Origin: a virus
IMG/VR virus record: IMGVR_UViG_3300047471_000079
Span: 1-44,213 of that record
Length of the DNA: 44,213 bases
Direction: 5' to 3' (one strand)
The translations under genes and the position numbers were made by a program. Shown here in pieces: positions 1 through 44,213 of the stretch; position 1 is the first letter of the stretch, and the number at the start of each line of letters is the position of its first letter. Under the pieces are notes generated by a model that worked only from the letters and a program-made list of their open reading frames with translations, did no database searches and was not told the origin of the DNA.

Positions 1-127
1 GGCGCGACGCGGCAATGAAGCGTAGATACGTCGCGACGTGGTGCGACAGCTTGTCGCATGGAATGTTGTATTGCCGTCCGGTATATATGACGTCGGAATG
101 AAACGACGAAGCGACGCTAGCTAGGCC
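1..127. repeat. Terminal direct repeat, left copy
   Basis: These 127 bases are identical to 44087-44213. Identical contig ends mean the molecule closes into a circle (44,086 bp unique). A length of exactly 127 is a common assembler k-mer size, so this is most likely overlap from a circular or circularly permuted genome and not a biological terminal repeat, though the latter is not excluded. The copy carries one CGTAGATACG box of the hub array (21-30) and the TATATAT element at 82-88. Confidence 0.95.
59..88 (+). promoter_or_regulatory. Candidate early promoter
   Basis: A TATATAT element at 82-88 lies about 80 bp upstream of the first rightward gene, in otherwise GC-rich sequence. The best -35 at 17 bp spacing is TGGAAT (59-64), which is weak. 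It is placed where the early promoter must be, between the repeat array and the first gene. The -10 is plausible and the -35 is not convincing. Confidence 0.35.
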
Positions 128-1525: not shown

Positions 1526-2104
1526 ATGTCGCTCGTCATCCCAATGTGCCTGCAAGTCCCACGTTCGATACCAAAAGAGAAAACCACGTTCGATGAGCGC
1601 TGCGCCATATTCGCGCTGTATCACACTCATCGACCCGGAGCTAAACCGCTGGCAATCGTATTCTCGTTGCATCGTGTCGTCATTCATCAAATTGCTGCCA
1701 TCAACGGCCCATTGTATCGAAACGTCAAAGCCGTCTATCACGATATCGGCCTGTCCAAGATGTATGAAAAATACGTCAGACAGGATTACCTTGATCGTTT
1801 GGCCGCGTGCTTCGTTGATCCGGAACAAAATCAAACTGATTTCGATACGGAGCATCGTAACCAAATAGGGCACGGCCCCTCTAACCGCGCTGCGAAGCGT
1901 CGTGGTGAGCATCTCATCAAAGAGCACCGTTTCACCATTCAATGGCTTGAAGCCGGTCAGCACTCGCCTGACGCGAAAGAAGGCTGGTATTTCATGGTAC
2001 CGGACAAATTTCCCGATCAATGGCTCGGCGGCGACAAAGGTGCACCATTCACCACGTCAACAGAGTGCTATGCATTCTGCAAAGACCTCGCAGAATACTG
2101 GTAG
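1526..2104 (+). CDS. Putative HTH DNA-binding regulator, paralogue 1 (192 aa)
   Basis: A region around residues 22-60 reads as a homeodomain-like helix-turn-helix (ERCAIFALYH then PLAIVFSLHRVVIHQIA). It matches residues about 22-60 of the protein at 4661-5194, and both then continue with a YxxVKA helix and a C-terminal domain ending in an E/K-x-GWY-F/W motif (EGWYFMV). The pair therefore arose by duplication. Its own promoter region precedes it, and GAAAGG supports the start. A role as an early transcription regulator acting on the shared operator-like sites is attractive but inferred; the C-terminal domain is unknown. Confidence 0.65.
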   Translation: MSLVIPMCLQVPRSIPKEKTTFDERCAIFALYHTHRPGAKPLAIVFSLHRVVIHQIAAINGPLYRNVKAVYHDIGLSKMYEKYVRQDYLDRLAACFVDPEQNQTDFDTEHRNQIGHGPSNRAAKRRGEHLIKEHRFTIQWLEAGQHSPDAKEGWYFMVPDKFPDQWLGGDKGAPFTTSTECYAFCKDLAEYW

Positions 2105-2181
2105 GTGCGACAACCTGCCACATATACAAAGAAAGGTTACAGGCATATAGTCTAATCATCGAAGCAAAGGGAAACAAGTCG

Positions 2182-4460: not shown

Positions 4461-4664
4461 ATGCGTCATGATTTGCGCTTAGTGGACGGCGTTATGTTCG
4501 AACTGCGTGGGGACGGCAATTGGCACACGCAAGGCGGCGCAATGGTCAAGACGCATGGCGATGACCGCTTCACATATACCGTGCCGAACGACCCTTTCAG
4601 CATGGTGTATCATTCGTTCGTATTGGCCGCGCGGCGGGCAATGAGTTACAGGAAAAGAAAATGA
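4461..4664 (+). CDS. Hypothetical protein (67 aa)
   Basis: A GAAAGG Shine-Dalgarno supports the ATG at 4461. The small protein starts with a beta-hairpin-like segment rich in Gly and Asp (VDGVMFELRGDGNWHTQGG) and ends with a basic tail (RRAMSYRKRK). Its stop overlaps the next start (ATGA), coupling it to HTH paralogue 2. It may be an accessory of that regulator; no family is recognised. Confidence 0.6.
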   Translation: MRHDLRLVDGVMFELRGDGNWHTQGGAMVKTHGDDRFTYTVPNDPFSMVYHSFVLAARRAMSYRKRK

Positions 4665-5194
4665 GTGACATAAACCCTGCTGCGTTGCGCAAGGCTACTG
4701 ACAAATACGCGCCGCGCCTCGACTTTCGCACACGCGCGGCGATATACGCCCTGTATCATCACAAGGGCGTTGCGCGCGGTCCGCTTGCTACCGCATTCGG
4801 ATTGGCTCGCATCACGGTCGCGCATATCACGGATACATCCGAGCGCTACAAGAGCGTAAAAGCCAAATGCGCGCAAATGGGCTTGGAAGCCTTCTACACG
4901 GCCTATGTCACTGAGAGCGACATACTCAGCGTCAACTCAACTTTGGCCGCGCAGACCCCTTTAAAACCGAAGCAATCACGCATCGTGGATGCATCCGACT
5001 ATGAGGGCCAACACGTTGTCAACGGAATAACAGTCGATATCCAATATCTCGGATACGACAATGGGCGGCGCGACAAAAAAGCCGGTTGGTATTGGCGCAT
5101 GTGGGATAGCGCAGAGTTCAACGGCATACCGGCACGGGCGGGCGAGACGTCCGCTGAAGTTTACAAATTTCTGGAGGAAAATCTTAGGCCATGA
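4661..5194 (+). CDS. Putative HTH DNA-binding regulator, paralogue 2 (177 aa)
   Basis: Residues about 20-55 form a homeodomain-like HTH (RAAIYALYHHKG then PLATAFGLARITVAHIT), followed by a YKSVKAKC helix. The C-terminal part (about 110-177) has a beta segment VDIQYLGYDNG and the AGWYWRMWD motif. Both halves align with the protein at 1526-2104. Start and stop overlap neighbours by ATGA on both sides, so it is part of a coupled cluster of at least four genes, unlike paralogue 1. Probably a regulator of phage transcription; the DNA target is not known. Confidence 0.65.
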   Translation: MSDINPAALRKATDKYAPRLDFRTRAAIYALYHHKGVARGPLATAFGLARITVAHITDTSERYKSVKAKCAQMGLEAFYTAYVTESDILSVNSTLAAQTPLKPKQSRIVDASDYEGQHVVNGITVDIQYLGYDNGRRDKKAGWYWRMWDSAEFNGIPARAGETSAEVYKFLEENLRP

Positions 5195-6875: not shown

Positions 6876-9449
6876 ATGACATTCAAATCCTCAACGTCGC
6901 CGTTCACTCTGAGTTCGGCGCAGCTTGAACTTGTGCACCAACAGCGCGCGATCACGGCGGCGATCAACAAGAGTTTTATTCAGGTAGCGGCGATCTACCT
7001 CGCATCGAACGCAAAATCGCCCACGGAAGAAGGTTGGCAGAAAAAGACCTATCTATCGACCGATTTACAGGAATGGATAGATGACGAGGACAAACGCTTT
7101 TTCAACGTTGGTTTTAACCTGCAACTCGGATGGCTCGATATCGATATTGACGCAGCAGACGGAGCCGACAGAACGTTTAATCAACGGATGGTGGACGGCT
7201 TGCGTGCCTGCGGAATTGACACCCGGTTCGCGTTTGGCCGTCAATCAGTGGGCGCTCCAACCCATATCTTGGTCCAATTGGCCGAAGCGGATCATGAAAA
7301 CTTCGACAAACTTAAAGCGTTTTCGCCGAAGGAATTCAGGCTTAACGGCAACCGATACGAAAATCAGCTAAGGGCATATCCGCCGTCATTGAAAGACAAG
7401 GCGCTCGCGGACGGCGCAAAGCAAACCGTTATGCCGGGGAGTGTCTACACTCATAAGAAGCTGGCAGCGACGGCGGACCCGTCTGTGTGGTGGACGGCGG
7501 ACGGTAAGGTAGCCTCATCGGTTAAGGATATCGCCGCCACAACGGCGCGGCGCGCTTCGTTCCGCGATATAGTAAGGGGTATCGCTTTTGGCGTTGTTCT
7601 GTATCTACTGGAACCCCATTGGATCGAAGGGCAACGGCAGAATGTAGCTTCGAAGTTTACCGGCTGGCTCGCTCGCGTCGTCGGGGATAGCGCGGCGCTC
7701 AACACACATGACCGGCTCAACAATGAAGTGTTCTGCTGTGTCGATAGTGACGAACATGCGCGGGCGCTCATTGAGTTCGTTTGCAGCATGCTAGGCGACG
7801 ACGAGGCGTCTATGCGATACCGCGCCTATTACGATGCGCGGCGCAAGCTAGAGCGTAACCCGGAGGCCAAGATACCCGGATGGAACGCGCTCGGCGATAT
7901 CCTGACAACGCCGGGTATGAACGCGCTTAGGGCCGTGTTCATGCCGGGATCGGATGTTTCGCCGCTCGCCAAATTCGCGGAGCAATACATATACGACCGG
8001 GAAAGCGGGCAATATATCGACGTTTCAGCGTTCAAATCCCGGCGCAAATATATGTTTGAGGCGGAAAAGCTAATGCGCCGCCATATGGGCGAAGTGATCC
8101 GGGTAGCGGACAAAAGCGTTGATGCGTTCGTGATTTACGAGCGTTCGAAGATGCGCAAGTCAGTCAATGCGGTTGACATGTATCCTGACCTTGATCCCGG
8201 TCGCATCTATGTCCGCGATAGCCTTGGCGACATCCTTAACGAAGATGAGGAAATGCCGCCAGAGGCGTACACCTTCTTCAACCAATGGGAAGGCTGGCAA
8301 ATAAGTCCTGTCGAGGAAGTTAACCTCGAATTGATGAAGGAATGCAACGCCAAACTGGATCGGCTCTTAGGCTATCTGACATGCGACAATAAGGAGCAAA
8401 TCGAATGGATCAAAGATTGGTTTGCTTGGACGCTGCAACACCCGGCCACAAAGCAGCAAATTGCATGGGTTGTGGTTGGCGGTATGGGAGTTGGCAAGTC
8501 ATTCATCGGGAATACCTTCGCGAAGGCGGTATTCGGACATTTATGGGGATCAGCTTCGCCGCAAATAATCGACCAAAAATTCAACGTGAGTTCGTTTTTG
8601 GGCAAGATGATGGTCTTCATCGATGAGGCGCGCTTTAACGGGGAAGCGGCGGGCGACGAAGTTAAAAAGCTAATCCGCAACGTCTCGTTTCACGGTATGG
8701 AAAAGGGCGTGGACGCAAAGGATTATAACATCTACGCGCGGATCATGTTCGCCGCCAATAAGTTCAATCTCAACCTTGGGAACGGTGACACGCACGACCG
8801 GGCTCTTTTCTACACCAAGGCTTATACCCGCGAATATCTCGGCATGTCCGATAGGGCCTTCAAGGAATGGGCTGAGGGCCTCAAGCCATTTTTCGCGGAG
8901 TATGCGGCCTTCCTCGAACGTCGCGACGTCAAGCGGCATTATATGCGCATGCTCATGGATCGGCCCGTTGTCTTGACAACCGTCGAAAGCACACAGCACA
9001 GCGCCTCCAATGATGTTGATCTTGTAGTCCATAACATGACCTACGCTCGCCAAATCGCGCGGAGCATAGTGCAATCAGGATGGATAATCGAGCATACGGA
9101 TATATCAACACCGTTCACTAATGTTGACCTGAATAACCGCATTACCGCCGTCAACAAAGAATTGGGGCTGTCGAATGTGCCCGTGAGCCGAGTTCTCGCT
9201 GAGTTCACGGCGGCGGATATGTTGGAAGATGTTATCGCGGGCGGTAGCATTGGGCGGCGATTTAAATGGAAGATCGGCGCATTACATGAGAAATTCGGCG
9301 ATGCGACGGGAGCGCCTATTGCATCACAGTACGTTTTCAATGAGAGTGATTACGAGCGCAACGAAGCGACGACAGTTGTGCAACCGCGCCCGAAGCTAGG
9401 GCGTACCTCATCCTTTAGCGTTGTCGAGGGTGGAAGAGGCAAAGTATGA
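6876..9449 (+). CDS. Primase/polymerase-like and SF3-type helicase fusion (857 aa)
   Basis: The N-terminal third resembles archaeo-eukaryotic primase-polymerase domains: GWLDIDIDA places acidic residues D88, D90 and D92, H130 lies in APTHILV, and a MPGSVY segment follows. The C-terminal part is a DUF5906/D5-like ATPase with Walker A GGMGVGKS (535-542) and Walker B MVFIDEA (579-585). Such fusions prime and unwind DNA at phage forks. It opens the replication module and is coupled by ATGA to a small basic gene. The primase residues are assigned by pattern; the helicase call is firm. The leader at 6800 may control it. Confidence 0.8.
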   Translation: MTFKSSTSPFTLSSAQLELVHQQRAITAAINKSFIQVAAIYLASNAKSPTEEGWQKKTYLSTDLQEWIDDEDKRFFNVGFNLQLGWLDIDIDAADGADRTFNQRMVDGLRACGIDTRFAFGRQSVGAPTHILVQLAEADHENFDKLKAFSPKEFRLNGNRYENQLRAYPPSLKDKALADGAKQTVMPGSVYTHKKLAATADPSVWWTADGKVASSVKDIAATTARRASFRDIVRGIAFGVVLYLLEPHWIEGQRQNVASKFTGWLARVVGDSAALNTHDRLNNEVFCCVDSDEHARALIEFVCSMLGDDEASMRYRAYYDARRKLERNPEAKIPGWNALGDILTTPGMNALRAVFMPGSDVSPLAKFAEQYIYDRESGQYIDVSAFKSRRKYMFEAEKLMRRHMGEVIRVADKSVDAFVIYERSKMRKSVNAVDMYPDLDPGRIYVRDSLGDILNEDEEMPPEAYTFFNQWEGWQISPVEEVNLELMKECNAKLDRLLGYLTCDNKEQIEWIKDWFAWTLQHPATKQQIAWVVVGGMGVGKSFIGNTFAKAVFGHLWGSASPQIIDQKFNVSSFLGKMMVFIDEARFNGEAAGDEVKKLIRNVSFHGMEKGVDAKDYNIYARIMFAANKFNLNLGNGDTHDRALFYTKAYTREYLGMSDRAFKEWAEGLKPFFAEYAAFLERRDVKRHYMRMLMDRPVVLTTVESTQHSASNDVDLVVHNMTYARQIARSIVQSGWIIEHTDISTPFTNVDLNNRITAVNKELGLSNVPVSRVLAEFTAADMLEDVIAGGSIGRRFKWKIGALHEKFGDATGAPIASQYVFNESDYERNEATTVVQPRPKLGRTSSFSVVEGGRGKV

Positions 9450-9625
9450 AAAAGATTGGTGGAGCGAAAAGCAAGGCAATGAAGCCATTCGCAGGCGGCA
9501 AGGCTATGAAGACACCGCCGCCGAAGATGGATGCCAAAAAGACGGTATCGCGTTCGGGGCTGAAATCAATGTCTATGCCGGTTGGATCGGCTGTGATGCG
9601 CGCACCGTCGAAAGGCCGCTTCTGA
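9446..9625 (+). CDS. Small Lys-rich protein coupled to the helicase gene (59 aa)
   Basis: It starts by ATGA overlap with the primase-helicase stop and ends by TGATG overlap with the next gene. The translation starts MKKIGGAKSKAMKPF and ends MRAPSKGRF. It is very basic (about ten Lys), rich in Met, Gly, Pro and Ser, and probably disordered. A competing frame from 9421 covers it, but that has no start signal. Probable nucleic-acid binder or helicase accessory; no family is recognised. Confidence 0.6.
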   Translation: MKKIGGAKSKAMKPFAGGKAMKTPPPKMDAKKTVSRSGLKSMSMPVGSAVMRAPSKGRF

Positions 9626-9825
9626 TGGGCAAGATCAAGCTATCGGGCTCGTTCAAGGGTAAGTCCAACAAGCTTGGACACGGCGGGCGCGCGGCGCAGT
9701 TGAAAGCGCAAGGCGTCCCCGGTGGAGTAATCGGCGAATTGGCGCGTAAGGCGCAAGCCGCACCCGGACAAAAGAATTATCACGGCGGCAAAAAGGCCGT
9801 TGACATTGTAACCTTACAAGCGTAG
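9625..9825 (+). CDS. Small basic Gly/Lys-rich protein (66 aa)
   Basis: The start is the second half of a TGATG overlap, so it likely depends on reinitiation after the 59-aa gene. The sequence is basic and Gly-rich (SGSFKGKSNKLGHGG at the N-terminus, NYHGGKKAVD near the end) with one short helix. It resembles its neighbour in composition, suggesting a paired role in DNA or RNA binding. Its last codons overlap the promoter-like element at 9800-9828. Confidence 0.6.
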   Translation: MGKIKLSGSFKGKSNKLGHGGRAAQLKAQGVPGGVIGELARKAQAAPGQKNYHGGKKAVDIVTLQA

Positions 9826-13093: not shown

Positions 13094-13230
13094 CACCCCT
13101 ACTTATCACTCACAATTGCGGACCCGTATGCACCGGATGGGAATGCACGCCGATATGGATAGGCATAGCCGTATGGGTGGTTACGGTAGCGGGCACGGCG
13201 CTCCTATTCGCATATAATAAATGGCTGTGA
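13090..13230 (+). CDS. Possible small membrane protein coupled to the polymerase gene (46 aa)
   Basis: The ATG overlaps the polymerase stop (ATGA). The product has a Cys-containing N-terminal part (three Cys between residues 10 and 19) and one hydrophobic segment, residues 21-42 (IWIGIAVWVVTVAGTALLF), followed by YNKWL. A competing frame at 13083-13217 would give a 44-residue His/Met/Gly-rich basic peptide. I favour the membrane frame for its coupling and clean helix. Confidence 0.45.
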   Translation: MTPLLITHNCGPVCTGWECTPIWIGIAVWVVTVAGTALLFAYNKWL

Positions 13231-13242
13231 CATTCTGTCGCA

Positions 13243-16501: not shown

Positions 16502-17090
16502 AAATACAGCGGGCTGGCTCACGGACGAAGCCAAGCGCCTCATCACGACCGAGCGTGCGGATCAGCACGGCGACGCTGCGGAAAGTTTCGCGATGATCGC
16601 GGAACTTTGGACCGTCTACCTCGCACACACGAACAAGATGGGGTACGGCAGTCCGCGATCTGTCGTCATTACCCCGCGCGACGTCGCGGAGATGATGAGC
16701 CTCCTGAAGAAGGCGCGGAAGGTGTACGGCTCTGGCAGCGCGGAAAACTACATAGACGATATCGGTTACACCGCTTTGGGCGGATCGATGGTCGTGCATG
16801 ATATCATCAAAGAGGAGGCGCATAAGGCCGTGAATGAGGACAACGCAGCGCAACAAGCGGTGCAATACGCCGGAAGTCCTGTGAATGATTTGCGCGCTCT
16901 TAAGGAGGCAATGGCGGCCAAAGCGCGAGCGGAGCAGCGGGATTTCGACCAAGCCGGACCGTATATCAGTAAGGAAGAGGTAGACCGGATCACCAAACTC
17001 CAAACGAAGCAACAGCAGGATGCGTACAATAGCGCCGTTGCCGCGCAGGAATACCCCTACACCCCTCCCAAAGGACTTACGCCTAAATGA
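16482..17090 (+). CDS. DUF6378-type phage protein (202 aa)
   Basis: GGAG about 11 nt before the ATG supports the start. Residues about 21-105 follow the DUF6378 pattern: RADQHGDAAESFAMIAELW, then ITPRDVAEMMSLLKKARK and NYIDDIGYTALGG. The fold is helical and thought to be related to MazG-like nucleotide pyrophosphohydrolases, though activity is not established. The C-terminal third is a charged extension. Nucleotide metabolism would suit the neighbourhood. Confidence 0.7.
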   Translation: MSDVNRRNTAGWLTDEAKRLITTERADQHGDAAESFAMIAELWTVYLAHTNKMGYGSPRSVVITPRDVAEMMSLLKKARKVYGSGSAENYIDDIGYTALGGSMVVHDIIKEEAHKAVNEDNAAQQAVQYAGSPVNDLRALKEAMAAKARAEQRDFDQAGPYISKEEVDRITKLQTKQQQDAYNSAVAAQEYPYTPPKGLTPK

Positions 17091-18505
17091 GCACCCTTGA
17101 CGAAGTACAGCGCAAAGCCCTCGCCGCGAGCGAGGGTAAGCGCGGCTTTGGCTATTTCATGGAAATGGGCTTAGGCAAGACATTGACGGCGCTGGCTGAC
17201 TTTCAGCGCGCTCTGGATGATGGTGACGCAACGCGTATGCTCGTCGTCTGCCCGAATAGCTTCAAGGGCGGATGGCGCGCGGAGATAGCCAAGCACGGCT
17301 TTGATTTCGACGCCCATATCTATGAGACGGGTTCGAAGACAAGCAAGGCATGGCTGCGGGGTTCGTTCGACAAGCCCCCGGTGCTGATCATGCACTATCA
17401 GGGGTTGCGGACGGCGGGCGGCATTGCCGATGCGTGCGCCTTCGCCGACGCCAAGCCTACCTTTGGCGTGTTCGATGAGAGCATTCAGATTAAGACCTTC
17501 GATAGCTCGCAGACCAAGCGCTCTATCGAGCTAGGCAAGCATTTGGAGTTCTCCCGCATTCTGTCCGGCAAGCCCACGACGCAAGGCCCGCATGATCTGT
17601 GGGCGCAGATGCGCGCAATTGGGAAATTGAACGGCTTCAATTACCACTCCTTCAAGACGCAGTTCACGGTCAAAGGCGGATGGGGCGGCGAGCAAGTTAT
17701 AGGCGTGAAAAACGAGGAATATCTCGCCGAGTTGATCGAGCCCCACGTGTTCCGCGCACTCAAGGCGGACTGGACCGACTTACCGCCGAAGAGCTACACG
17801 ATCCGAGAATACGACATGAGCGCCGAGCAAGCGGCGCAGTATGCCAGCATGCACGACGATTTCGTTCTCTGGCTCACCGAGACGGACGGCGTGACAATCG
17901 AGCAAGCGATCACGCGTTATATGAAGCTGGCCCAAATTCAAGCCGGGTTCATCATCGATGAGGAAAAGAAGGTTCACGAGCTAGTGCCGCTCGCGCGCAA
18001 CCCGCGCGTCAACATCCTGAAGGAAGTTCTGGATACCGAAGTGACTGGGAAGGCAGCGATTGTCTACCATCACCGCTATTCCGGGGACATACTGCTAAGG
18101 GCGCTCGTAGAAGGCCGCCCGGCATATATCACGGGCGGGATGCCTGCCGAAGTCATAGAATACCAAAAATCACGCTTCAACGACGATCCGAGTTGCCGCT
18201 ACATCCTGCTACAGGATCAGGCTTCTAAGTATGGACACACTTTGCTAGGAGGCCCGGAGCCGGACAATAGGTGCGCGACAACCCTATTCTTCGAAAACAC
18301 CTATTCCCTCGACACCCGGTCGCAAGTCGAAGACCGCATTCATCGGAGAGGCCAAACCGCCGATAATGTGCTATATGTGGATTTAGCGGGCACGCCACTT
18401 GACAGGAATTGCATAGAAGCGCTGCAACGAAAAGAAGATTTGTATCAAGCCGTGTTCTCGCTAATCCGCCGCGCCGTTCCCGGCCAAAAGGCGGTTTTCG
18501 CTTAG
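17087..18505 (+). CDS. SNF2-type superfamily 2 helicase/translocase (472 aa)
   Basis: Motif I is MGLGKT (K31, T32), motif II is DESI (130-133), motif III is SGKPT (160-164) and motif VI is QVEDRIHRRGQ (about 413-423). The spacing and RxHRxGQ ending are those of SNF2/SWI2-like translocases, and the length is typical for phage members. It probably remodels protein-DNA complexes or aids recombination during replication. It is coupled to the previous gene by ATGA. Confidence 0.85.
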   Translation: MSTLDEVQRKALAASEGKRGFGYFMEMGLGKTLTALADFQRALDDGDATRMLVVCPNSFKGGWRAEIAKHGFDFDAHIYETGSKTSKAWLRGSFDKPPVLIMHYQGLRTAGGIADACAFADAKPTFGVFDESIQIKTFDSSQTKRSIELGKHLEFSRILSGKPTTQGPHDLWAQMRAIGKLNGFNYHSFKTQFTVKGGWGGEQVIGVKNEEYLAELIEPHVFRALKADWTDLPPKSYTIREYDMSAEQAAQYASMHDDFVLWLTETDGVTIEQAITRYMKLAQIQAGFIIDEEKKVHELVPLARNPRVNILKEVLDTEVTGKAAIVYHHRYSGDILLRALVEGRPAYITGGMPAEVIEYQKSRFNDDPSCRYILLQDQASKYGHTLLGGPEPDNRCATTLFFENTYSLDTRSQVEDRIHRRGQTADNVLYVDLAGTPLDRNCIEALQRKEDLYQAVFSLIRRAVPGQKAVFA

Positions 18506-25239: not shown

Positions 25240-25475
25240 GGCGAAGTCTTCCCCGGAACAACAAGGGTCGTCGTCAGCGTACCGGTATCGCCCACGGTCA
25301 ACTGATACACCTTATTCGAGGGCGAAATCAGGAACAATCCCGGAACTGCCTCATCGCGTGGTATTTGGCGTGCCAGTGACTTATGAGCCCAATTCGATAG
25401 CTGCGCGAGGTACGTGGTCATTTCACGTGAAACATTCGTCATCGGCGGCGGCAGGGGCGGGAGTACAACGGCCAT
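25236..25475 (-). CDS. Hypothetical structural protein (79 aa)
   Basis: Coupled to the upstream nozzle-like gene by TAATG overlap, with GGGGGAG before it. It has a Pro-rich N-terminus (LPPLPPPMTN), an amphipathic helix (LAQLSNWAHKSLARQI) and a C-terminal beta segment. Its context suggests a minor tail or head-tail component; no family is recognised. Confidence 0.55.
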   Translation of the reverse strand: MAVVLPPLPPPMTNVSREMTTYLAQLSNWAHKSLARQIPRDEAVPGLFLISPSNKVYQLTVGDTGTLTTTLVVPGKTSP

Positions 25476-41141: not shown

Positions 41142-42296
41142 CTACTTAATAAACGTCAAAGCGTTGATCTGCCCCGCCGCAGCGAGGGCCAGATACCCCG
41201 TCTGATTTGGATGCAGATAGTCCGTCGAATATGAAGCCGTCCACACGGGTTGATCCGGCACCGCCTCAACGACAACCGCGCTATCCACGACTTGTTCCGT
41301 GAGTGTGTCGGCCCGGTTCCGCGCCATCCGGTTGAATGCAACCCGCACTGCCTCAAACCCGGCGTTGTTCGCCGCCGTGTTGCCGCCATTGGCATGCGGC
41401 AGAATGGTGCTATGCAGCATCGGCAAACCGGTAAGGGCCGAAATCTGCAACCGGTCGTTCATGACCTGATTTGCGTTCCGGCTGAATTGCTCGATATCGT
41501 TGATACCGTAATTGCACGTCATATGCGTGAAATACTTCTGCGCCAGCGTCACCCGGTTCGTGCACGAAGCGAGGAATTTGCTGGCACCGTCACCGCGCAC
41601 GGCGTAGTTCGCATATGCGATGCTTGGCGCAAGCGAGCGGGCATGCTCACCATAAGCCCCCGTCGCGTCCGACGTATCGCTCTCCACACCCCGGCTGTCC
41701 GTGATGCACACGACAGAGGGACGCGTCGTCTGCGAGACGATGGCGAGCGGCGCGAAGCTATTATTAATATCGTCCGTGCCATACGCGCCGGACATCGTGT
41801 TGTCCGTGATGCCGGACACCGCCGCCGTAAGCTGGTCGCCGCCCGTATTATAATGCGTGGACGCCTTGTCGATGAAGATCACGCCCGCCGTGTTCGTGTA
41901 ATAAATTCGAACGAAGAAGGTTGCACCGCGAGGGATGAACAATCCCGTTACCGCGTCACTTTCGACAAAGCCCCCGTCCGGGCATGTCACCGTCGCAACG
42001 CCGTTCCATTTGACCTGCGTCATCGTGCCGGACGGGTATTCTATGGCCGCCGTATAAATGCTGTTCGCCCCGATCTTGGTTTCCTGATACGTCGCGCCGT
42101 AGCTGAAGTTGGCGACATAAAAGCCCGGCAACACAATCTTGGGCGTCACGATATCATCCATCGCGACGTGGAAGCTGCGCGATTGGAACTGCTTGTTCGT
42201 TGCGAAGAAGCCTACCGGCAACTTGCACCGCGTCGCTACCTGCCCTAGCTGCGCGGTCCTGCTCGCCGATACGCCGGGAGTGGCAAAGAAAGCCAT
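41142..42296 (-). CDS. SGNH/GDSL hydrolase virion protein (384 aa)
   Basis: The catalytic domain is C-terminal: block I is VVCITDSRGVES with S201, block III is NYGINDIE with N266, and block V is STDYLHPNQ with D359 and H362. The N-terminal 180 residues are beta-rich (carbohydrate-binding or virion attachment). Such esterases remove acetyl groups from capsule or LPS and appear on phage tails. It is encoded at the start of the late arm, away from the fibres. AAGGAG supports the start. No signal peptide. Confidence 0.75.
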   Translation of the reverse strand: MAFFATPGVSASRTAQLGQVATRCKLPVGFFATNKQFQSRSFHVAMDDIVTPKIVLPGFYVANFSYGATYQETKIGANSIYTAAIEYPSGTMTQVKWNGVATVTCPDGGFVESDAVTGLFIPRGATFFVRIYYTNTAGVIFIDKASTHYNTGGDQLTAAVSGITDNTMSGAYGTDDINNSFAPLAIVSQTTRPSVVCITDSRGVESDTSDATGAYGEHARSLAPSIAYANYAVRGDGASKFLASCTNRVTLAQKYFTHMTCNYGINDIEQFSRNANQVMNDRLQISALTGLPMLHSTILPHANGGNTAANNAGFEAVRVAFNRMARNRADTLTEQVVDSAVVVEAVPDQPVWTASYSTDYLHPNQTGYLALAAAGQINALTFIK

Positions 42297-43062: not shown

Positions 43063-43719
43063 CTATTCATCCGTTGAAGCGCCCCCAAGCGGTTCGACGT
43101 ATGCGAGCATATCACGGAACTTGTAGCTACTCATAACCCCAATTGCCGATCCTGATACCGTTTGAGATATAAATTCGAAGCGCACCGTAGTCTGCTGTTT
43201 GTCGAGTGGGGCGACGAGCGTTATCTGTGGCGCGCCGGACCAATGCGCCCTCAACGTGTCTTCTTCAGTGACTTGCGTCTGGTCGGTGTTGTCACGCATC
43301 AGCGGGCCGGGGAATAACGGGTCGTAATTGTCTTTCACGTACGCTGTGTCAGTCTGCGCGTATCCGAGAATGCTTTTAGCGGCTTCTTCGTCCACATCTT
43401 TGTTGAAGACACATTTGCCGTCGAACCAAATTCGAAGCGGCTTCATGGCGGGGTTTATCAGGACGTCGGGCATTGGTGCTGCAACTGTTGGCTTGCGCCC
43501 CATGCGTTCGAGGTCAACCTGCTCCTGAGTGCCTTTAACGAGGTCCATGAACATGTCTAGATTTTTGGAGTTGGGCGAATATGCGTCGAATTCGAGCTTG
43601 AGCATGTAGCCGTAATCGTTTGGCAGCTTCGTATCCATCGTGACGGTATGCGAGCCGTTGTCGTGCTGCATGATGGTTATGAAAGCGTCGTTCTTATATA
43701 CGGGCATTGTTTTGGTCAT
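43063..43719 (-). CDS. Hypothetical protein, first gene of the late arm (218 aa)
   Basis: A GAAGGG site supports the start. The protein is soluble, of mixed beta/alpha type with an acidic C-terminal half and many Asp and Met residues (YGYMLKLEFDAYSPNSKNL, MFMDLVKGTQEQVDLERMG, EDTLRAHWSGAPQ). No family is recognised. Being nearest the late promoter it is probably highly expressed and may be structural or regulatory. Confidence 0.6.
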   Translation of the reverse strand: MTKTMPVYKNDAFITIMQHDNGSHTVTMDTKLPNDYGYMLKLEFDAYSPNSKNLDMFMDLVKGTQEQVDLERMGRKPTVAAPMPDVLINPAMKPLRIWFDGKCVFNKDVDEEAAKSILGYAQTDTAYVKDNYDPLFPGPLMRDNTDQTQVTEEDTLRAHWSGAPQITLVAPLDKQQTTVRFEFISQTVSGSAIGVMSSYKFRDMLAYVEPLGGASTDE

Positions 43720-43743: not shown

Positions 43744-43772
43744 TTCGTAGCACGATTGTTAATAGGTTGCAA
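43744..43772 (-). promoter_or_regulatory. Candidate late promoter with related operator motif
   Basis: Read leftward: TTGCAA (43767-43772), 17 bp, TACGAA (43744-43749). The upstream part reads CATTGCAACCTATTAACAA, close to the CATTGTAACCTTACAA of the promoter at 9800. The -10 is weak. It is the only promoter-like site before the first leftward gene. Confidence 0.45.
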
Positions 43773-43829
43773 TGTGCTTTTATACGCCGAGCGATGAGCG
43801 ACGGGTCCCCTTGGCCCCGGCCCGCTGAG

Positions 43830-43844
43830 CCACCCTCCCGGTGG
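43830..43844. other. GC-rich hairpin beside the repeat array
   Basis: CCACC-CTCCC-GGTGG forms a small perfect hairpin at the late-gene side of the array, within a very GC-rich stretch (43803-43848). It could be a transcription pause site or part of the hub architecture. No function is assignable. Confidence 0.4.
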
Positions 43845-43846
43845 GG

Positions 43847-44127
43847 GTCATCTACGCTGCCGCGCCGTAACTACGCTCAACGCCGTCACTACGCCGCATC
43901 ACCGTAACTACGACACCACGCCGCGACGCGGCAACGCAGCGTTGTTACGCTCAACAGCGTAGATACGCAGCCATGCCGTAACTACGGACCTGGAGCGCGG
44001 CGCGTTGCCACGCTGTAACTACGGCGCACAGCCGCGACGCGGCGACGTGCCGTAACTACGATGGCACAGCGATGCTACACCACGACGGCGCGACGCGGCA
44101 ATGAAGCGTAGATACGTCGCGACGTGG
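43847..44127. repeat. Phased 18-19 bp tandem repeat array (iteron-like), putative origin or master control region
   Basis: About 14-15 direct repeats follow each other without gaps at 18 or 19 bp. Units start at 43847, 43866, 43884, 43903, 43922, 43940, 43958, 43977, 43996, 44014, 44033, 44051, 44070, 44089 and 44107. Each opens with a 10-bp box: CGTAACTACG (43866, 43903, 43977, 44051), TGTAACTACG (44014), CGTAGATACG (43958, 44107), CGTCACTACG (43884), CGTTGTTACG (43940) or the GC-rich CGCGACGCGG (43922, 44033, 44089). Units at 43847, 43996 and 44070 are degenerate. The commonest box is a dyad, CGTA-NN-TACG. The array fills the non-coding gap between the divergent arms. Iterons of this kind bind replication initiators or regulators; origin function here is inference. 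Confidence 0.85.
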
Positions 44128-44213
44128 TGCGACAGCTTGTCGCATGGAATGTTGTATTGCCGTCCGGTATATATGACGTCGGAATGAAACGACGAAGCGA
44201 CGCTAGCTAGGCC
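44087..44213. repeat. Terminal direct repeat, right copy
   Basis: Exact copy of bases 1-127. It holds the last two units of the hub repeat array (boxes at 44089 and 44107) and a small inverted repeat, GCGACA-GCT-TGTCGC, at 44129-44143. Confidence 0.95.

Follow-up and report, generated by a model that had tools for sequence, protein, structure and literature searches.

Iteron origins such as those of lambda O and P1 RepA are made of repeated sites of about 18-19 bp. The sites are usually spaced by close to two helical turns, and AT-rich DNA adjoins them. In phage P4, the alpha protein combines primase, helicase and origin recognition in a single protein, and the ori and crr iterons lie away from its gene. 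In SaPI and SCCmec elements, iterons are bound by the C-terminal domain of a helicase (PMC7581432). The origin of pRN1 has a variable stem-loop interior set between conserved flanks, and the authors of that work propose likewise for phage BIP-1 (PMC4234260). The PrimPol of NrS-1 recognises TTTGGTTA and starts at TTTGGTTA or GTG (PMC8718748). A search for an origin or regulatory map of podoviruses related to phage OH found none.

The locus compared with these systems lies in the window, the whole 44,213-nucleotide stretch of IMG/VR record IMGVR_UViG_3300047471_000079. The record closes into a circular map (44,086 b), its bases 1-127 being identical to 44087-44213, so the array described below, which runs into this repeat, sits within the circular map. 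Kinship with the cultured Ochrobactrum podovirus vB_OspP_OH (terminase 64%, primase 47%, together with gene layout) points to an uncultured podovirus related to OH as the source. More distant relatives, designated here by L numbers, were gathered by terminase and primase alignments (60 and 53 loci, some on the same contig). Relatives at ~60-66% TerL identity to the window are not close, and a DNA search, which may leave out very near records, returned no closer one. Elements in these relatives were located by regular expressions, with part of them inspected by eye, and promoter and winged-helix assignments were made by pattern. Rfam and ARAGORN gave no match to a known RNA element or tRNA. In OH (L004), 16531-17583 is annotated as a PurZ-like 2-aminoadenylosuccinate synthetase; the matching part of the window showed no similarly sized ORF.

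The region between the divergent arms is laid out as follows.

1..127, no strand: terminal repeat, 127 b, by its identity with the window end
43063..43719, minus strand: first late-arm gene, 218 aa, flanking the gap; a relative was sought and none found
43744..43772, minus strand: predicted weak late promoter, TTGCAA-17-TACGAA, its position matched to relatives
43803..43847, minus strand: bipartite element of 45 bp, C5 - 33 bp - GGGACCCG, known from ~25 relatives and abutting the late side of the array
43847..44127, no strand: lattice array of 15 positions (12 clear boxes, 3 weak), period 18.57 bp, from comb scan, lattice fit and shuffles
44128..44144 (= bases 42-58), no strand: palindromic operator TGCGACAGCTTGTCGCA (TGCGACA-N3-TGTCGCA), abutting the early side of the array and the promoter -35
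44145..44173, plus strand: predicted early promoter, -35 TGGAAT, 17 bp, -10 TATATA, with a geometry common to other operator sites

The array thus occupies exactly the interval between the late-side element and the early-side operator and promoter. Its boxes, as read from the sequence, start at these positions.

43866, 43884, 43903, 43940, 43958, 43977, 44014, 44051, 44107, no strand: class A boxes, CGTANNTACG
43922, 44033, 44089, with a variant at 44118, no strand: class B boxes, CGCGACGCGG
43847 (GTCATCTACG), 43996 (CGCGGCGCGT), 44070 (CGATGCTACA), no strand: weak lattice positions

The earlier note had counted 14-15 dyad-symmetric units at an 18/19-bp period. The period stands: the 15 positions fit a lattice of 18.57 bp with an rms residual of 0.31 bp and no drift, although three of them are weak. 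Permuting the 18 and 19 bp steps gives a mean rms of 0.49, with P(rms<=observed)=0.019. A comb scan of the whole genome peaks at the array, at P=18.5-18.6, and the array is still the maximum after codon correction; it is the strongest non-codon periodicity of the genome (z=7.9 against Markov shuffles). Exact copies of CGTANNTACG number six in the 292-bp array against three in the other 43.8 kb, and CGCGACGCGG occurs three times in the array and nowhere else. The suggestion that box variants are selected sites is borne out by information content, which is mostly 0.8-1.65 bits in box columns and mostly 0.07-0.76 in spacer columns; it is the boxes that are conserved, not whole repeat units.

The dyad symmetry fared less well. 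Central AC is found in nine of the ten AC/GT-centred boxes. This polarity makes the units as much direct repeats as dyad-symmetric sites. The two box classes do share one lattice, as had been proposed, but the dyad axes of class A and class B are offset by half a base pair. The period corresponds to ~1.77 turns of B-DNA, which places adjacent boxes on different faces of the helix. The same array was not found elsewhere: the two-box pattern was matched by 24 viral stretches and 109 genomic ones, none of which has this array, and the denser two-box matches are short tandem or unrelated repeats. The array is a lineage-specific row of selected, putatively protein-binding boxes on an 18.57-bp lattice. 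An unrelated phage contig (L133, 10620-10880) carries eleven irregularly spaced CGTACCTACG / CGTAGGTACG boxes.

The gap that holds the array is the longest non-coding one in the window, but not the only long one as had been stated, since 1279-1525 is non-coding too. A terminator-like hairpin lies in this second gap, as does the genome's AT-richest stretch (spot at 1451); the gap is possibly an alternative origin or a promoter region. The array does lie where both divergent arms start, between two promoters, and this position is conserved across relatives. The cumulative GC-skew minimum predicted near 43.9 kb is absent; skew follows gene direction.

What surrounds the array is conserved, and what fills it is not. 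The late-side element, with C5-9, a gap of 26-33 bp (mode 32) and GGGACCC, is present in ~25 non-redundant relatives, at the same place in every one whose surroundings were inspected. In six of these relatives (L082, L083, L088, L090, L104 and L113) its interior, though unrelated in sequence, forms a perfect hairpin; the window's own hairpin is weak. In many relatives the element is followed by a strong promoter, TTGAC-17-TATAMT, of which the window has a weak version. On the early side, the operator stands directly before the -35, with the same promoter geometry, in the window, OH, L083, L104, L113 and L114. It recurs in OH at 344, 781, 932, 2969 and 5226, at three OH sites one helical turn further from the -35. 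A search of 1.63 Mb listed 15 sites, one window site being counted twice among them, against ~0.3 expected by a rough estimate. The early promoter matches 7 of 12 consensus bases, and a generic promoter scan found none at 44145..44173. The window holds two further copies.

2106..2122, plus strand: operator copy 2, followed by TATACA-17-TATAGT, from a pattern search
13226..13242, plus strand: operator copy 3, followed by TTGACT-17-CATTAT, from a pattern search

By its sequence, the palindrome TGYGACA-N3-TGTCRCA, which abuts a sigma70-like -35 or precedes it by one turn, is a putative phage regulon operator, and where it abuts the -35 the arrangement looks like that of an activator site. The ORF 2020-2493 overlaps both 1526-2104 and the operator at 2106; a start at 2183 is more likely. 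The whole makes one control region of ~530 bp with a conserved frame, which could be excised and tested across podoviruses related to OH.

Between these flanks, relatives carry other words. GGTTG words lie between the element and the early promoter in L020, L021, L022, L024, L025 and L031, and the corresponding gap holds GCTGGC words in OH, GTCCTA boxes in L082, L088 and L090, ATGTTATAACAT palindromes in L008, L010, L014 and L063, and very little array in L083. Periods in these gaps differ or are absent, and OH lacks the 18.6-bp one. The expectation that period and box would be conserved thus failed at ~60-66% TerL identity; this weakens the lattice as a shared feature, but such relatives are not close. 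Across these sequences, the position and frame of the gap are conserved, and the sequence and period of the boxes are not. In a comparison made post hoc, after the data had been seen, the word RGTTR is common to the window array and the relatives' GGTTG arrays (5 observed against 0.8 expected, on one strand only); the OH gap has none. Upstream of the C-run, the arrays of L022, L025 and L031 have very few A on the late-sense strand (L025 2/280, L031 6/330), which makes the two strands strongly asymmetric.

What could bind such a row of boxes? The earlier note had looked for an initiator among the HTH proteins and the primase-helicase. The latter is a credible candidate and the former are HTH-like, their binding to the boxes being a prediction from sequence and models.

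6876..9449, plus strand: PrimPol-helicase, 857 aa, candidate initiator, from a sequence profile and a structure model
1526..2104, plus strand: HTH-like early protein, paralogue of 4661-5194 by sequence comparison
4661..5194, plus strand: HTH-like early protein with N-terminal helices at 22-35, 39-46 and 50-57, from a model of pLDDT 85.5

The PrimPol-helicase model (pLDDT 86) consists of PrimPol, helicase and C-terminal winged-helix-like domains, the last having, in our reading of the model, its helices and strands (residues ~714-796) ordered as in a winged helix. The model matches the C-terminal region of NrS-1, AsfvPrimPol and SaPI PriRep1 bound to dsDNA, and the sequence profile also finds NrS-1. 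We infer, with a probability of roughly 40%, that the array is the initiator-binding part (the iterons) of the phage replication origin, and that the PrimPol-helicase binds it through its winged-helix-like end. Together, the probabilities of this and the other readings fall short of one, the remainder belonging to readings we have not thought of. The C-terminal domain would bind the boxes, possibly with help from the two HTH paralogues. Rings of the helicase would form there and unwind the DNA, perhaps at the neighbouring C5...GGGACCCG element, and the PrimPol domain would then prime two forks, one into each arm, along transcription. From lineage to lineage, the boxes and the specificity of their initiator would evolve in step. 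Should the array be an origin, its exchangeable versions would let one ask how the specificity of a primase-helicase and its sites co-change.

The case for an origin draws on the position at the junction, the type of replication protein (AEP primase plus ring helicase), the precedents and the iteron-like turnover, as well as on the kept boxes in their driftless lattice and the RGTTR word in common with GGTTG arrays. The array is a tandem of direct repeats of a short site, as in iteron-type origins, and forks leaving the junction of the divergent arms would be co-directional with nearly all genes. Repeat size is similar to that of lambda O and P1 RepA, but the two-turn phasing and the AT-rich DNA are missing: the array and the element are 20-46% AT, with no AT-rich unwinding region beside the repeats, and a period close to whole helical turns is usual, though not universal, in iteron-type origins. 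The near-absence of an array in some relatives, such as L083, also counts against an origin, as do the missing skew minimum, the lack of RGTTR words and of the 18.6-bp period in OH, the weak hairpin of the window's element, the absence of TTTGGTTA from the array and the candidate initiator gene, which is 7 kb away, unlike in SaPI, SCCmec and pRN1. The layout, with repeats away from the gene, makes phage P4 a candidate parallel, no box similarity being claimed.

Near parallels are SaPI Rep and SCCmec Cch2 (PMC7581432), which like the window pair a primase-helicase-type protein with direct repeats bound by its C-terminal domain, a binding that in the window is predicted. Their origins directly follow the rep gene, whereas the window array lies at 43.9 kb, is GC-rich and has more boxes, at 18.57 bp; the end of the PrimPol-helicase gene is overlapped by the ORF 9421-9825. 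pRN1 ORF904 and Bordetella phage BIP-1 combine an AEP primase and a helicase with a winged helix, which in the window is predicted, and their element with conserved flanks and a variable interior may have its counterpart in the element of these phages, which forms a hairpin in some members. The pRN1 stem-loop, however, is ~100 nt and lies 3' of the rep gene, whereas the window element is ~45 bp, stands in the divergent gap and has a weak hairpin; a short-loop search of 9.4-9.9 kb, 3' of the PrimPol-helicase gene, found no strong inverted repeat. NrS-1 (PMC8718748, PMC7102993) resembles the window in a related ring helicase domain and in the RGTTR word of the window's and its relatives' arrays, but its genome has two TTTGGTTA copies and no array, and the exact 8-mer is absent from the window array.

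A stronger version of the origin reading would have the PrimPol-helicase or a partner form a continuous helical lattice, with a unit of 18.57 bp (~1.77 turns), on two box classes that share it. This would define a class of origins in which a promoter-operator-hairpin frame is conserved and the boxes are replaced between lineages; we consider it improbable.

Alternatively, the array may be no origin but an operator array. Cooperative binding of its boxes by the HTH paralogues (1526, 4661), either or both, would switch early against late transcription or silence one promoter. On its own this is doubtful, yet it comes close to the origin in likelihood because the array has a promoter on each side and the HTH family is at hand, being present in nearly all relatives, with two copies in the window; the 4661-5194 model has no confident PDB match. 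The array ends exactly at the activator-type operator and early promoter and begins beside the element near the late promoter, and the ATGTTATAACAT palindromes in the gap of other relatives resemble repressor operators. Against this, the operator-promoter unit also stands at 2106 and 13226 without an array, which speaks for a role of the array that goes beyond that regulator, and 15 sites over 280 bp exceed a typical switch. The recognition-helix region of the window's HTH proteins differs from the RRTVTHI of most relatives, as the boxes differ from GGTTG. This helix comparison was also made post hoc, and OH keeps an RRTITHM helix without GGTTG boxes; several GGTTG-poor relatives also have RRT helices. 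A correspondence between recognition helix and box type was accordingly set aside as partial and broken by OH. So was a pairing of the two HTH paralogues with the two box classes: several relatives that lack the two classes also carry two copies of the gene.

It is very unlikely that the region is a packaging signal, in which terminase would bind the array and the C5...GGGACCCG element would be a cos or pac site. Terminase sites do often have repeated boxes, and the element lies at a conserved position 1-4 kb upstream of terL. However, several assemblies close to circles through overlaps of k-mer size (127 b for the window and for L006/L096, 55 b for OH), unlike fixed cos ends, and the array differs between lineages in which TerL and a neighbouring small protein stay 47-66% identical. 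Equally remote is a decaying tandem duplication without function. Duplication would give boxes of nearly all one polarity, as seen, in an array not found in other genomes, but here the boxes are kept while the spacers are randomised, the lattice is without drift, and many relatives have an array at this place. Least probable of all is a centromere-like or host-factor loading array that functionally replaces the host-type parS site found near the gap in other phages, since the boxes are unlike parS, the window gap has none (the best window match, with 2 mismatches, is inside a gene at 25419), and no ParA/ParB/ParR-like gene was found among the proteins scanned.

The parS sites themselves (TGTTYCACGTGRAACA, <=1 mismatch) occur in or near the divergent gap of eight phages: OH (L004) at 41199-41214, L021 at 160, L022 at 4405, L024 at 4336, L027 at 1837, L028 at 809, L076 at 2124 and L114 at 1956. 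By our own estimate, chance would give roughly 0.1 such sites over the 1.63 Mb searched, and their presence there raises the question of whether these phages use the chromosome-segregation proteins of the host.
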